A DNA stretch of 64,000 nucleotides, from positions 1-64,000 of the forward strand of contig JANQIE010000178.1 in assembly GCA_028282295.1 (NCBI GenBank), given 5' to 3'. The stretch's first letter is position 1; the number at the start of each line of letters is the position of its first letter. The position numbers and the translations under genes were made by a program. The DNA is from Desulfobacterales bacterium. GTDB lineage: Bacteria > Desulfobacterota > Desulfobacteria > Desulfobacterales > JANQIE01. Below, piece by piece: positions 5,594 through 13,074 of this stretch. The notes below the pieces were generated by a model. That model had not been told where the DNA came from. It searched no databases and saw only the letters and a list, made by a program, of their open reading frames with translations.

Positions 5594-6778
5594 GTGACGT
5601 TTTCCCTGTCGCGCTCACTTTTTTTTGGCATCATGCATAAGCGGTTTATCCAAGCGTACGAAAGATTTGTTAAAATTCGCGGTCATCCCCGCGAAATCGC
5701 CTTGGGGTTCGCGTTGGGTCTTTTTATTGCCCTGACACCGACCATGGGGCTTCAAATGATGATGGCCTTTTTTTTAGCGGCGGTGTTCAAGTGGAACAAA
5801 CTCTCCGCCCTGGTCGGCGTTTGGATCACCAATCCGTTCACCGCGCCCTTTATCTATACCGCCACCTATATTTCCGGCGCGCGACTATTGCGAATCAAAC
5901 AAACCATTCTGCCCTCGGGTGAATGGGATTTGTCGTTACTGATCGAACTAATTAAAAAAACCCCGGAGCTGATTGCCGCCTTGACACTTGGTGGCGTTGT
6001 GATCGGGATACCGGTGGCCGTGGCCGGTTATTACGTAGCCTTCATGGCGGTGGACAAATACCAGAGCGACCTCAAGGAACGGCTGACTAAGCATAAACGC
6101 CTGCAGCGCAAGCGCCGCAAACAAGAAAAACGCAAGCAGGCCCAACAGGCGGCCAGTGCCTACAAGTTCAAACGCTACAAACGCAAACGACTCAGCGCAA
6201 GGGGACCAAAATCGAACGGAATGCAAAAAAATCTTACCAAAACCAGCAAGTTTTTAAGTTACGTGTTGCGGCACAAACCCGAGGCCATCGGCCTGGCCCT
6301 CGATCAAAATGGTTGGGCATCGGTTGATGAACTCATCCAACAGGCCCGGACGCACGGCAGGACGATCGACCAACGGCTCATCGCCGAAGTTGTTGCGACC
6401 AACGATAAACAACGCTTCAGCCTCAGCGAGGACGGCCGCCGTATTCGCGCCCGGCAAGGCCATTCCATCGACATCGCCTTGGGGCTTGAACCTCAGGCAC
6501 CACCGAGAATCCTTTTTCACGGCACCGCCACCCGCTTTTTGGATTCGATATTGAAAGCCGGTCTCAAACCCAAAGGCCGACAGCATGTACATCTGTCGCC
6601 GGATATCACCACGGCGTTAAAAGTCGGCCAACGGCACGGCAAACCGATTGTAATTCAGGTCCAGGCCGATGCGATGCATCGTGACGGCCTGAGATTTTAT
6701 CTATCCGAAAACGGTGTCTGGTTGACCGGTCCGGTGCCGGCGCAGTTTCTGACACTCATCGATGAAAAAAAAATTTAA
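5594..6778 (+). CDS. kptA: DUF2062 membrane domain fused to RNA 2'-phosphotransferase (KptA/Tpt1)
   Basis: One uninterrupted 394-codon frame. Residues about 14-165 match DUF2062: HPREIALGFALGLFIALTP, then two or three membrane segments. A very basic linker (about 165-208) follows. Residues from Met210 are a full KptA: TSKFLSYVLRHKPEAIGL, the HGTATRFLDSIL block, HVHLS and NGVWLT. KptA removes the 2'-phosphate from RNA splice junctions, transferring it to NAD+. No stop separates the halves, so this reads as a genuine fusion that would tether KptA to the membrane. The start is GTG 5594 or ATG 5633, neither with a good RBS. Internal initiation at ATG 6221 is possible. A family A hairpin abuts the stop. 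Confidence 0.85.
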   Translation: MTFSLSRSLFFGIMHKRFIQAYERFVKIRGHPREIALGFALGLFIALTPTMGLQMMMAFFLAAVFKWNKLSALVGVWITNPFTAPFIYTATYISGARLLRIKQTILPSGEWDLSLLIELIKKTPELIAALTLGGVVIGIPVAVAGYYVAFMAVDKYQSDLKERLTKHKRLQRKRRKQEKRKQAQQAASAYKFKRYKRKRLSARGPKSNGMQKNLTKTSKFLSYVLRHKPEAIGLALDQNGWASVDELIQQARTHGRTIDQRLIAEVVATNDKQRFSLSEDGRRIRARQGHSIDIALGLEPQAPPRILFHGTATRFLDSILKAGLKPKGRQHVHLSPDITTALKVGQRHGKPIVIQVQADAMHRDGLRFYLSENGVWLTGPVPAQFLTLIDEKKI

Positions 6779-9207: not shown

Positions 9208-10710
9208 TCAAATACATTTCACCAGGACCGCATCCGCCTGACGATGATCCAGGCGAATTCGGCTCCCGTCTTTTTTTTCGACCACCCAGGTGGATCCACC
9301 GTCGATTCGTTCACACATCGTAATCTGCTCGCCGTCCTTCAGGCTCAGGTCTTTGGCGGCAGTTAACACTTTTGCGACCACGCCGCTTCTGCCGCGATGG
9401 TAGTAACTTAAGGGGACCGGACGGTCGCCATGATTGCAAATCACGTCCTCCGGGATTTCCGTGCCGTGCGGGTCTTGCTCGGGATGGCCGAGCAGATCGT
9501 CCAGATATTCGATGGTACTGGTGTCGTGCATATGTTCCAGATGTTCGGCGCGCTCATGGATTTCCACCTCGGGAATCCCCACATGCTCCAAATAGGTTTC
9601 CCATAAGCGGTGCGATCGAATAATCCGCTTGGCCTCTGTACGTCCCTTTTCGGTCAACGCAATCGTGCCATCGTTGAGCGCCAAAAGCCCTTGCAACGCC
9701 AGATTTTTCAGACTGCGCCGGCGTTTGGATTGTATTTCGACATGCCTGTCGAGGTCTGACTCCGACAATTGCCCCTGACGGTACAACGCCGCCAGGATAT
9801 CTTCCATATCCTGCTGAGGGACCATGCGACGCCGTTGCAGCCAACGCGCCAACATGCCGTAGCGCGGCGCAACCAGCAAAACGACCAGAAACTGCAGTGT
9901 ACAAAAAAGCATGATAGCGCCGCCGCCGGCCGAGTCGAGCCAGATACAAAGATAAAGGCCGCCGACAACGCTGGTGACACCGAACAGCGCACTGAGCATC
10001 ATCATGCGGTCCAACCGATCGGACAACAGGTAAGCCGTGGCCGCCGGGGTGATCAACAGACCCACCACCAGGATGACGCCCACCATGCTGACGGCACTGA
10101 CAACCACCAGGGAGACACACGTGGTCAGTACATAGTCGATAAACACCACCGGCAGGCCGATGGACACCGCCATCACGGGATCAAAGCTGGTGATCTGAAA
10201 ATACCTGAAAAACAGAATAATAATCGACAGCACCGCCGCGGAGGTAATTGCCGAAGCCCAAAGATCGGCATCCGCCACCCCCAGCACATCCCCCATGATA
10301 AAATGCATCAGGTCGATATGAATGTAATTGCGGAAGATCGAAACCACCACCACCCCGGCGGCGAACACGCCGGTATACATGATGCCGATGGCCGTATCTT
10401 CCTTGATACGCGATACCCGGGAAACAAAACCGATCAGAACCACGGTCAGCACCGCCGCCAGCAGCGACCCGATCAACATGGACGGCGCATGCGCTTCGAT
10501 ACCGAACAGCAACTTCATAAACAGGTAACCACCGGCGACACCGGCAATCAGCGCGTGGGACAAAGCATCGCCCAAAAAGGACATGCGGCGCAACACCACC
10601 AAACAACCAACCACGCCGCTGACAATGGCGACCATGCTGCCGCCGATCAGGGACTTCTGGAAGAAGGTTTCCTGCAACGGCCCGAGAAACAAGTTGATCA
10701 GGGTATCCAT
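9208..10710 (-). CDS. Metal ABC transporter permease fused to a DtxR/MntR-type repressor
   Basis: A 500-residue fusion. Residues 1-285 are an ABC-3 permease with about eight or nine membrane segments (MRRMSFLGDALSHA-type N-terminal loop, GLLITPAATAYL). Residues about 300-420 are a DtxR/MntR repressor: an HTH starting MEDILAALY, then the metal and dimer region with H367, E371, H385, E389, E392 and H393. A FeoA/SH3-like tail follows (about 428-500). Glu at 389, where DtxR has Cys102, matches MntR and suggests Mn(II). Chlamydial YtgCR is a known fusion of this kind, cleaved to free the repressor. It is last in the operon, after the ATPase (6-bp gap), with AAGGAGCG upstream. Confidence 0.93.
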   Translation of the reverse strand: MDTLINLFLGPLQETFFQKSLIGGSMVAIVSGVVGCLVVLRRMSFLGDALSHALIAGVAGGYLFMKLLFGIEAHAPSMLIGSLLAAVLTVVLIGFVSRVSRIKEDTAIGIMYTGVFAAGVVVVSIFRNYIHIDLMHFIMGDVLGVADADLWASAITSAAVLSIIILFFRYFQITSFDPVMAVSIGLPVVFIDYVLTTCVSLVVVSAVSMVGVILVVGLLITPAATAYLLSDRLDRMMMLSALFGVTSVVGGLYLCIWLDSAGGGAIMLFCTLQFLVVLLVAPRYGMLARWLQRRRMVPQQDMEDILAALYRQGQLSESDLDRHVEIQSKRRRSLKNLALQGLLALNDGTIALTEKGRTEAKRIIRSHRLWETYLEHVGIPEVEIHERAEHLEHMHDTSTIEYLDDLLGHPEQDPHGTEIPEDVICNHGDRPVPLSYYHRGRSGVVAKVLTAAKDLSLKDGEQITMCERIDGGSTWVVEKKDGSRIRLDHRQADAVLVKCI

Positions 10711-10716
10711 GCCGTT

Positions 10717-11484
10717 TTAACGCTCCTTCTTGATTAAATTCGAAAAGACCCGCAAGCGGCCTTCGTAAACCTGGCTCAACAAATCTTCCTGCAACACGGC
10801 ACGCGGCGGGCCGTAGGCATACAATCGCTGTTTGATCAAAATCAAACGGTCGAAGTATTCCCCGGCAGTGGTCAGGTCATGATGAACCACGACCAAAGTT
10901 CGTCCCGAGGCTTTGGCATTTTCAAGCACATCCAGAATCGCCCGCTCGGTAGCCGCGTCGACACCGGCGAAGGGCTCGTCCAGCAACAAAATATCGGAAC
11001 CTTGCGCCAATGCCCGCGCCATGAATACCCGCTGCTGCTGACCGCCCGACAGTTGGCCGATCTGGCGGTCCTTGAATTCGCTCATCCGCACCATTTCCAG
11101 GGCTTCGTCCACGATACGCCAATCATCGGGCGAGGGGTCGGTGTACCAGGGGATATGCCCGTAGCGTCCCATCATCGCCACCTCTTTCACGCGGACCGGG
11201 AAATCCCAGTCCACGGCGCCCCGCTGGGGAACGTAGGCGACCAATCCCTTGGCTTTCTCGGCGGACACCCCTTGAATGGCTACGGTTCCCATATCCCGTT
11301 TTACAAAACCGAGAATTGCCTTGATAAATGTCGACTTACCAGCGCCATTGGGTCCGATGACCCCAATCAACAGCCCTTTCTCGATACTCAGGGTCACATC
11401 CAGAAGTGCTGGTTTGGGGCCATAGCTGACAGTTAGATTTTCAACCTGAATGGCTGGCCGGGTGGCTTGTGCGTTAGTGGTCAT
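10717..11484 (-). CDS. Metal ABC transporter ATP-binding protein
   Basis: A 255-residue ATPase energising the Mn/Zn/Fe uptake system of this operon. Seen: Walker A GPNGAGKS, signature LSGGQQQR, Walker B DILLLDEP and the H-loop VVHHD. The start ATG 11484 (AGGAG upstream) overlaps the end of the preceding gene by 11 bp, which implies translational coupling. A longer in-frame start at 11535 would lie deep in that gene and is less likely. Confidence 0.93.
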   Translation of the reverse strand: MTTNAQATRPAIQVENLTVSYGPKPALLDVTLSIEKGLLIGVIGPNGAGKSTFIKAILGFVKRDMGTVAIQGVSAEKAKGLVAYVPQRGAVDWDFPVRVKEVAMMGRYGHIPWYTDPSPDDWRIVDEALEMVRMSEFKDRQIGQLSGGQQQRVFMARALAQGSDILLLDEPFAGVDAATERAILDVLENAKASGRTLVVVHHDLTTAGEYFDRLILIKQRLYAYGPPRAVLQEDLLSQVYEGRLRVFSNLIKKER

Positions 11485-11980
11485 GGCCGTCCTGCTCCTG
11501 TTCAGCTTCAATGGCAAACCGGAACGATTGCGCAATGTTCTCCCCCGGAGCGGCCCAGTAGGTCTGTTCCTTCAGGACCTGCTCATCTTTATAAAGCTGC
11601 ACTCGTACGGCCTGAGCCCCGTTGGTGGTCTGGAGCGGCGGACTGGCCTGGATAAACAGTTCGTTGGCCCCCACCTTCAAACCATCGGTCAATTCAACCC
11701 GAACCGGCTCTCCCGCGATGATGCCCCCGGTCTTCGATATGATCGTATGGGCCCCCAACCGCACGACCAACGCCGCCGGTGATTCACCATCCACCATCAG
11801 CGCAAAAGGGTCGGGTTCGGCCGTGAACGTCGTGGTCAGGCTTAAAATGTAACGGCCGGCAGCCTTCTCCAAATGAATCGCTGCTGGCTGCACCATTGCG
11901 GCGGTATCGCGCTGTTGCATATAAAACGTCAACCCGCCGACAAACATCCCCCAAATTACCAGCACCCAGATAATACGCAC
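11474..11980 (-). CDS. Membrane-anchored periplasmic protein of metal-uptake operon, unknown
   Basis: 168 residues from GTG 11980 (AGGGGG nine bases upstream; a TTG at 11986 is too close to it). One N-terminal membrane segment (about 2-20), then a beta-rich domain, probably periplasmic, without recognised family motifs. The last seven residues, EQDGHDH, are acidic and His-bearing and could bind metal. It sits between the solute-binding protein and the ATPase genes, so a metal-delivery accessory role is an inference from position. Confidence 0.75.
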   Translation of the reverse strand: MRIIWVLVIWGMFVGGLTFYMQQRDTAAMVQPAAIHLEKAAGRYILSLTTTFTAEPDPFALMVDGESPAALVVRLGAHTIISKTGGIIAGEPVRVELTDGLKVGANELFIQASPPLQTTNGAQAVRVQLYKDEQVLKEQTYWAAPGENIAQSFRFAIEAEQEQDGHDH

Positions 11981-12036
11981 AACCAACGCCCCCTGATTAT
12001 GAATTGCGGCTTACAAACAAAACGCAATACAGTCGG

Positions 12037-12960
12037 TCACTTCAGCGCCTCAATGATGGTGAGAACATTTTCCCGCATCATGCCGATATAGGTCTCGCCG
12101 GCGGTTCCGGCTTCCCCCATTGAATCCGAATACAAGCTGCCGCCGATTTTCACGCCGGCATCCCGCGCGATTTCACGAATCAATTTAGGATTTACACTGG
12201 TCTCCACAAAAACCGCTTTGGCGCCGAAGCTGCGAATCGATTCGATTACCTGTTTGCGACGCTGGGGAGTCATCCCGCCACCGACCTCGCTACCGGTGGA
12301 CCAACCGACCGGCGCCAAACTCAGGTAGTTGTTCTGGGGATTGAATTTGTACTCGTTGCAAAAATAATTGAAGGCATCGTGGCTGGTTACCAGAATTCGT
12401 TTTTGCGGTTCAATTTGATTGACCTGTTCCCGAATCCAGGCATCAAGAACCCTGAGTTGCTGTAGATAAAGCTTGGCCCGGGCTTGATACGTCGATTTAC
12501 CCTCGGCATCCAGACGGCCCATCGCTTTGACGATATTGTTGACATAAACCGCCGCATTACGGGGTGTAAACCAGGAATGCGGGTCGGCGATTTTCTGGCC
12601 GCCTTCTTCAATATCAATCGGTCGTATGCCTTCGGTGCAGGTTACCAGGGGTTTATTGGCATCGCGGGCCAGGGTCGCCATCCAGTTTTTACCTTCCAGA
12701 TGCATGCCATTTTGTAATGCCAGATCAGCACCCAAGACAGCCTTGGCATCTTGCGGCGTCGGGATATAAGTATGAGGATCGGCACCCGGTGCAAGGATGG
12801 ATTTGACAACGCAACGGTCGCCGACAATCTGCCGCGCAAAATCGGCAATCTGTGTGGTGGAACAAACCAGGATGGGACGAGACTCGGCAGCGAACGCATG
12901 TAGCGATGCGCCCATACATATACCGGTAAGGATCAAGCAGTAGCATAAAAGCTTTTTCAT
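12037..12960 (-). CDS. Metal ABC transporter substrate-binding protein (ZnuA/TroA cluster A-I)
   Basis: A 307-residue periplasmic protein with a signal peptide (MKKLLCYCLILTGICMGASL). The expected metal ligands are visible: His in DPHTYIPT, His in ADPHSWFTP, His in VTSHDAFNYF and Asp in LYSDSMG. His/His/His/Asp fits Zn or Mn binding proteins. The His-rich loop usual in ZnuA is absent, which together with the MntR-like partner favours Mn, though this is not proven. ATG 12960 has GGAGG at good spacing. First gene of the operon. Confidence 0.92.
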   Translation of the reverse strand: MKKLLCYCLILTGICMGASLHAFAAESRPILVCSTTQIADFARQIVGDRCVVKSILAPGADPHTYIPTPQDAKAVLGADLALQNGMHLEGKNWMATLARDANKPLVTCTEGIRPIDIEEGGQKIADPHSWFTPRNAAVYVNNIVKAMGRLDAEGKSTYQARAKLYLQQLRVLDAWIREQVNQIEPQKRILVTSHDAFNYFCNEYKFNPQNNYLSLAPVGWSTGSEVGGGMTPQRRKQVIESIRSFGAKAVFVETSVNPKLIREIARDAGVKIGGSLYSDSMGEAGTAGETYIGMMRENVLTIIEALK

Positions 12961-13045
12961 CAGGGCCTCCAACTGTTCTTTCGCTTATTTTTTTATTAAT
13001 TTCAGTTTGTTATCAAAAAAAATCCGGAAACATTTTAAGGGTGAC

Positions 13046-13074
13046 ACTATAATTAAGTTTTGGCCAAATATCAA
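13046..13074 (-). promoter_or_regulatory. Sigma70 promoter of the metal ABC operon, with a palindrome in the spacer
   Basis: Minus strand: -35 TTGATA (13074-13069), 17-bp spacer, -10 TATAGT (13051-13046). The spacer contains the 10-bp palindrome TTTGGCCAAA (13059-13068), a reasonable operator candidate for the repressor fused to the permease. Binding is not demonstrated. Confidence 0.65.

Follow-up and report, generated by a model that had tools for sequence, protein, structure and literature searches.

Fusion of an ABC-3 metal permease to an iron-responsive repressor has been described for chlamydial YtgCR (CT069), which, according to PMC5599777, PMC7755916 and PMC6504234, is cleaved and yields a product, YtgR, that together with iron represses its own operon. 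Permease-DtxR fusions in 11 phyla are attributed to Thompson 2012 in the review PMC5599777; the fusion architecture itself is already known, and the fusions of these many phyla have so far been read through one model, i.e., that of the cleaved chlamydial repressor. Trans-inhibition by pairs of cytosolic domains is described for the importers MetNI and ModABC in the review PMC10710835, both pairs being situated on ATPase subunits, and the Mn importers PsaBC and MntBC are homodimeric according to PMC11779740.

The window analysed here, a 64,000-nucleotide stretch of DNA from a Desulfobacterales bacterium, contains a fusion gene of this general type on its minus strand. The features of this gene and of the operon in which it lies were as follows.

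9208..10710, minus strand: fusion gene (500 aa), consisting of an ABC-3 permease, a winged helix, a DtxR-type metal/dimer domain and an SH3-like domain
9871..10668, minus strand: permease domain, residues 15-280 (Pfam ABC-3, E 3e-61)
9799..9867, minus strand: connector of fixed length (G285-to-304 spacing) from the last membrane helix to candidate metal ligand D304, residues 282-304
9652..9816, minus strand: degenerate winged-helix segment, residues 299-353 (predicted fold; helix-turn-helix part with 26% mean identity; PF01325 unlisted in 19 fusions)
9448..9654, minus strand: metal-binding and dimerization domain, residues 353-421, with H367, E371, H385, E389, E392 and H393 (Pfam Fe_dep_repr_C, E 1e-24)
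9211..9423, minus strand: C-terminal SH3-like beta domain, residues 430-500 (predicted strands, pLDDT approximately 90; alignment)
10717..11484, minus strand: ABC ATPase of the importer (PF00005 and MntA-like NCBIfam matches; conserved neighbor)
11474..11986, minus strand: 170-aa protein of unassigned family with one N-terminal hydrophobic segment (tblastn match in 16 of 19 related loci)
12037..12972, minus strand: metal-binding (solute-binding) protein, ZnuA-type, with H, H, E and D at the motif positions (PF01297, E 4e-76)
13046..13074, minus strand: sigma-70-like promoter of the operon, TTGATA-17-TATAGT (weak; 2 sites found as opposed to 1.1 expected)

The fusion gene was read in a single frame from an ATG at 10710 to a stop at 9208 on the minus strand, with zero internal stops in 500 codons. 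Thus, the proposal of the initial annotation that a permease and an MntR-like metal domain are joined in one chain was borne out by Pfam ABC-3 and Fe_dep_repr_C matches within one uninterrupted frame, as was its placement of the gene at the end of a metal ABC operon, after those for the binding protein, the 170-aa protein and the ATPase. The occurrence of an ABC-3 domain, an ATPase and a binding protein in one operon is that expected of an ABC-3 metal permease. Both domain order and operon position agreed with a YtgCR-like architecture in a free-living lineage, which had also been proposed. An assembly error or chance fusion was ruled out because 18 full-length relatives carry the same fusion in different records.

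Among solved structures, the Mn permease 7kyp was the best match to the permease half, and Mn/Fe repressors were the best matches to the second half. Residues from approximately 297 to 426 of the predicted model resembled the fold of MntR/DtxR repressors (DR2539 8pw0, 5zr6, ScaR, SloR, DtxR and IdeR), with Z of approximately 15-16 and rmsd of 2.1-2.6 in two-domain matches, and the metal-binding and dimerization domain characteristic of this family was present together with its candidate metal ligands. The window domain differs from these repressors in its attachment to a permease and in having no DNA-binding sequence signature. Many members of the window group differ from YtgCR in the addition of the SH3-like domain, which was missing from 7 of 19 fusions in the alignment.

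The candidate ligand set was larger than the four residues originally noted (H367, E389, E392 and H393) and included D304, H367, E371, H385, position 389, E392 and H393, which we take to correspond to M10, H79, E83, H98, C102, E105 and H106 of DtxR. The four residues were correctly placed, aligning with the SloR/ScaR/MntR-type motif in alignments that span residue 367 onward and exclude residue 304, although E389 proved atypical, this position being occupied by H in 17 of 19 fusions, by Q in one and by E in the window fusion only.

These 19 fusions comprise that of the window and 18 from one scan of a species-genome collection, which gave 20 loci, i.e., the 18 full-length fusions, one fusion at a contig end (L021) and one plain permease (L022), the last two of which were excluded from the set. 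The carriers were mostly relatives of sulfate reducers (Desulfobacteraceae and Desulfobulbaceae), with one labelled Acidobacteria. Distribution within the order of the window was patchy, a fusion being present in 5 of its 58 genomes. Across 19 loci (L003-L021), a same-strand upstream ATPase was noted in 17, a binding-protein match in 15 and the 170-aa protein in 16, and in one locus (L005) the fusion was present without the cassette. On a short MAG contig (L004, 1582-2310), the cassette ATPase was opposite in strand to the fusion gene, reflecting rearrangement or misassembly, and in Desulfobotulus alkaliphilus a frame that by eye resembles a cyclic-nucleotide-binding domain (L020, 5176-5928) lies between the ATPase and the fusion gene. 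The 170-aa protein, which gave zero Pfam matches, is possibly an unrecognized accessory part of the importer; it carries an acidic, His-containing C-terminal tail (DGHDH) and sits between the binding protein and the ATPase in 16 of 19 loci.

Motifs of the binding protein in 6 checked sequences were ADPH, DPH[AS]WF (ADPHS in the window), FVETSV and YSD, which supply the H, H, E and D of what we take to be an Mn/Fe-type set. A gene for the Mn exporter MntP (PF02659) directly precedes the binding-protein gene in three loci (L006, L009 and L010). From these motifs and the adjoining MntP genes, we infer that Mn is the likeliest transported metal.

Upstream of the operon, the promoter at 13046-13074 to which a repressor had been proposed to bind stood as a sigma-70-like match, and TTTGGCCAAA was located in its spacer (sequence read by eye only), but a search of this region gave no dyad that resembled an operator beyond chance expectation, the best dyads of the window's intergenic region falling within the range of shuffles. 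Likewise, no shared inverted repeat (arms of at least 7) was found upstream of 16 compared operons, although an operator may still be present. The possibility that a riboswitch takes the role of a repressor was also considered and rejected, there being no Rfam match near the window operon and, among 10 loci, no riboswitch ahead of the operon on its strand; a cobalamin riboswitch in one locus (L012) was on the strand opposite the operon.

Obvious differences between parts of the fused chain were noted in comparisons of sequence conservation. Thus, mean pairwise identity among the 19 fusions was 79% for the permease and 57% for the metal/dimer domain as opposed to 26% for the helix-turn-helix (residues 311-353), and in 0 of 171 pairs did identity in the helix-turn-helix equal or exceed that in the dimer domain. 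The opposite pattern was seen in a control set from the same order, made up of 30 free-standing DtxRs related to the regulator L024 of the window's genome (L025 and L080, the latter a duplicate of the query, were excluded); identities here were 60% for the helix-turn-helix and 48% for the dimer domain, and the helix-turn-helix was at least equal in 403 of 435 pairs. A weaker control, provided by 7 canonical regulators from beside double fusions, gave 35.5% for the helix-turn-helix and 39.8% for the dimer domain (helix-turn-helix at least equal in 8 of 21 pairs), and thus canonical regulators may show a helix-turn-helix slightly less conserved than the dimer domain; the gap in the fusions is far larger. 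PF02742 proteins (L047-L075) were dropped as a control since, where a frame could be read, most of them look poor in helix-turn-helix themselves. Many of these PF02742/FeoA-type proteins, which are free-standing and come from the phylum of the window, have, by eye, a shortened, non-canonical helix-turn-helix, and DNA binding by many of them is also doubtful.

Results of Pfam scans for the DtxR DNA-binding domain (PF01325) were similar. This domain was absent from the scan of the window fusion, from the matches listed at E 1 for all 19 window-type fusions (25 of 26 families) and from all of 40 double-fused permeases, whereas each of 10 free-standing regulators scanned gave a match above its cut-off. 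Thus, compared with the free-standing control, the conserved DtxR-type helix-turn-helix sequence was not found in the fusions. The winged-helix fold of the DtxR/MntR family was, however, confidently predicted (mean pLDDT of 92 for the C-terminal model), and this model superimposed on DR2539 over 131 residues, winged helix included (Z 16.3, rmsd 2.5). Generic winged-helix models touched some fusions (e.g., HTH_45 in 5 of 19), the net charge of the helix-turn-helix averaged +1.8 in fusions and free DtxRs alike, and helix 3 of the window fusion is basic. Values of pN/pS, calculated with synonymous sites near saturation, were 0.19 for the permease, 0.40 for the connector plus helix 1, 0.74 for the helix-turn-helix and 0.36 for the dimer domain, in agreement with the pattern of identities; the value below 1 for the helix-turn-helix counts against a loss of DNA reading. 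Conserved, sequence-specific binding of DNA by the fused domain thus appears unlikely from its sequence while some binding of DNA is possible, since the helix-turn-helix has diverged but fold and charge are retained.

The connector between permease and sensor was compared in 82 distinct fused proteins, with the second permease of L153, which stops before the metal domain, left out. G285, just past the last membrane helix, was invariant, and the distance from G285 to residue 304 was 20 residues inclusive in 82 of 82 fusions, while the segment after residue 304 varied from 38 to 83 residues. Residue 304 was D in 48 fusions, N in 17, H in 15 and R in 2, and in 77 of the 82 all seven candidate ligand positions held ligand-capable residues (H, E, D, N, C or Q). 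Part of the connector was also present in an unfused permease (L168), and its first half may therefore be ordinary permease tail. A fixed link from transmembrane helix to candidate ligand fits mechanical coupling better than it fits a disposable linker, without amounting to proof.

Transporters with two fused permeases were noted in a search of 199 genomes from the phylum of the L021 genome (record labelled Sedimentisphaerales), 70 of which gave matches at E 1e-25. In approximately 26 of the 199, two adjacent permease genes both matched into the metal domain (query end of at least 376; list read by eye), and in 19 of 20 double loci examined the domain was in frame on both permeases. In L153 (3694-4884, minus strand) the second permease stops after the winged helix, although the search match read across a single TAG and continued into the metal domain. 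The same double arrangement was present in a genome of the window's own order (G010). Two ligand classes were distinguished, i.e., a subunit-1 type (15 copies) with D385/D389, with H or N at 304 in most copies and never E389, and a subunit-2 type (16 copies) with D304, H385 and E or H (M once) at 389. With the 11 of 42 tandem frames outside both classes omitted and near-identical pairs (permease identity of at least 95%) dropped, identities of the helix-turn-helix and dimer domain were 25% versus 60% in the first paralogue set (helix-turn-helix at least equal in 0 of 103 pairs) and 25% versus 49% in the second (1 of 118 pairs). A separate canonical DtxR-type regulator was found within the examined flanks of 8 of the 20 double loci, and ligands were lost in some copies of L151 and L161. 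Since a released homodimeric repressor needs no copy on each subunit of a heterodimer, double fusions favor a sensor pair within the pump.

Permeases that end after the winged helix and have no metal/dimer domain were also seen in three loci from a third phylum search, L163 (1411-3875), L165 (1168-3860) and L166 (655-3701), some of them partnered with a fully fused permease. A winged helix can thus persist on a membrane protein in which there is no sensor.

With somewhat more confidence than doubt, the fusion protein is read from its sequence as one of two identical permease subunits in an Mn(Fe)-type ABC importer, each of which would carry a permanent cytosolic sensor, derived from DtxR/MntR, feeding back on transport. 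The observations in support of such a gate are the fusion itself, the conserved candidate ligands, the fixed connector, the diverged helix-turn-helix and, elsewhere, the double-fused transporters. The two permeases of each transporter would bring two sensor domains together beneath the membrane, where sufficient cytosolic metal would bind D304 on the first helix of the sensor and, in the dimerization domain, H367/E371/H385 and 389/E392/H393. In DtxR-family repressors, binding of metal repositions the first helix. Here, the fixed connector ties that helix to the last helix of the membrane domain, and movement of the former could be transmitted to the pump, which would be slowed or locked (i.e., trans-inhibited), while the winged helix would be kept as a structural part after loss of sequence-specific DNA reading. 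We infer the binding of metal, the dimer in the assembled pump, the inhibition and the loss of DNA binding. Of the cytosolic domain pair that a trans-inhibited importer would have, the attached domain was observed and its dimerization type was assigned by homology. The principle proposed resembles that of MetNI and ModABC in that a pair of cytosolic domains would bind the imported substrate and block the pump; it differs in that the regulatory domains of the latter have other folds and are on the ATPase, as opposed to a domain on the permease for which inhibition is presumed. PsaBC and MntBC resemble the proposed transporter as homodimeric importers with permeases of the same family. To our knowledge, neither has a fused cytosolic metal domain. 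Belief and doubt were evenly balanced for the more general proposal that a DtxR-type repressor was turned into the gate of a metal importer, with its metal-driven helix movement redirected from DNA to a transmembrane helix; the importer would be either a homodimer with identical sensors or a heterodimer with complementary ligand sets.

Evidence against such gating comes from YtgR, the sole characterized example found, for which both DNA binding and cleavage are described in PMC5599777, PMC7755916 and PMC6504234; retention of the winged-helix fold also counts against it. Were the window protein to behave likewise, its C-terminal half would be cleaved from the permease and, in metal-bound form, would repress the operon, as the initial annotation had it. 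The domain order and operon type shared with YtgCR, the DNA binding noted in the same sources for the C-terminal 139 residues that constitute YtgR, and the retention of a predicted winged-helix fold are consistent with this reading, as are the single-fusion cassettes, since the examined flanks of 18 single-fusion loci and of L077-L079 yielded no free-standing regulator and the fused domain could therefore be the sole local regulator. For the same reason, the repressor reading keeps some room in the window itself, the genome of which has two free-standing DtxR-family regulators elsewhere than in the operon. Release of a repressor by cleavage nevertheless appears unlikely on sequence grounds, although it is the most serious of the alternatives: compared with the published description of YtgCR, in which YtgR binds DNA and is cleaved, the helix-turn-helix of the window group has diverged, being the least conserved portion of the chain, and is missed by PF01325, no conserved operator was found upstream, the length of the connector is invariant, and both permeases of a pair may be fused even where, as at 8 of 20 such loci, a canonical regulator is present.

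The invariant connector would be compatible with an uncleaved repressor that, when bound to metal, binds operon DNA from the membrane and thus couples transport to transcription. This option is raised in the review PMC5599777, where full-length YtgC is noted to repress in E. coli too, and the basic helix 3 is in keeping with it; however, divergence of the helix-turn-helix among the 19 fusions and the lack of an operator common to the 16 upstream regions compared make it improbable. Conservation of candidate ligands that face the cytosol could also reflect a domain that receives or buffers incoming metal at the pump exit and exerts no control, but such an acceptor would leave both the conserved dimerization domain and the fixed connector to helix 1 unexplained, and we give it little credence.

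Should the gating reading be true, part of the fusions filed as permease-repressors would not be repressors and their annotation as such would be misleading, while metal ABC importers would gain a direct feedback mechanism that is not listed in the review PMC10710835, which names MetNI and ModABC as ABC examples. Searches of an open-access library gave no paper recognized as describing double-fused permeases or gating by the fused domain, which is not proof of absence; as far as these searches show, three things are new, i.e., transporters with two fused permeases, the connector of fixed length and the evidence against maintenance of the DNA-reading part. The double-fused transporters make gating directly testable. 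Elsewhere in the window, one frame on the plus strand (5594-6778) combined DUF2062 (residues 16-158) with a KptA/Tpt1 RNA 2'-phosphotransferase (residues 214-378), and may be either a fusion or two genes with no intervening stop.
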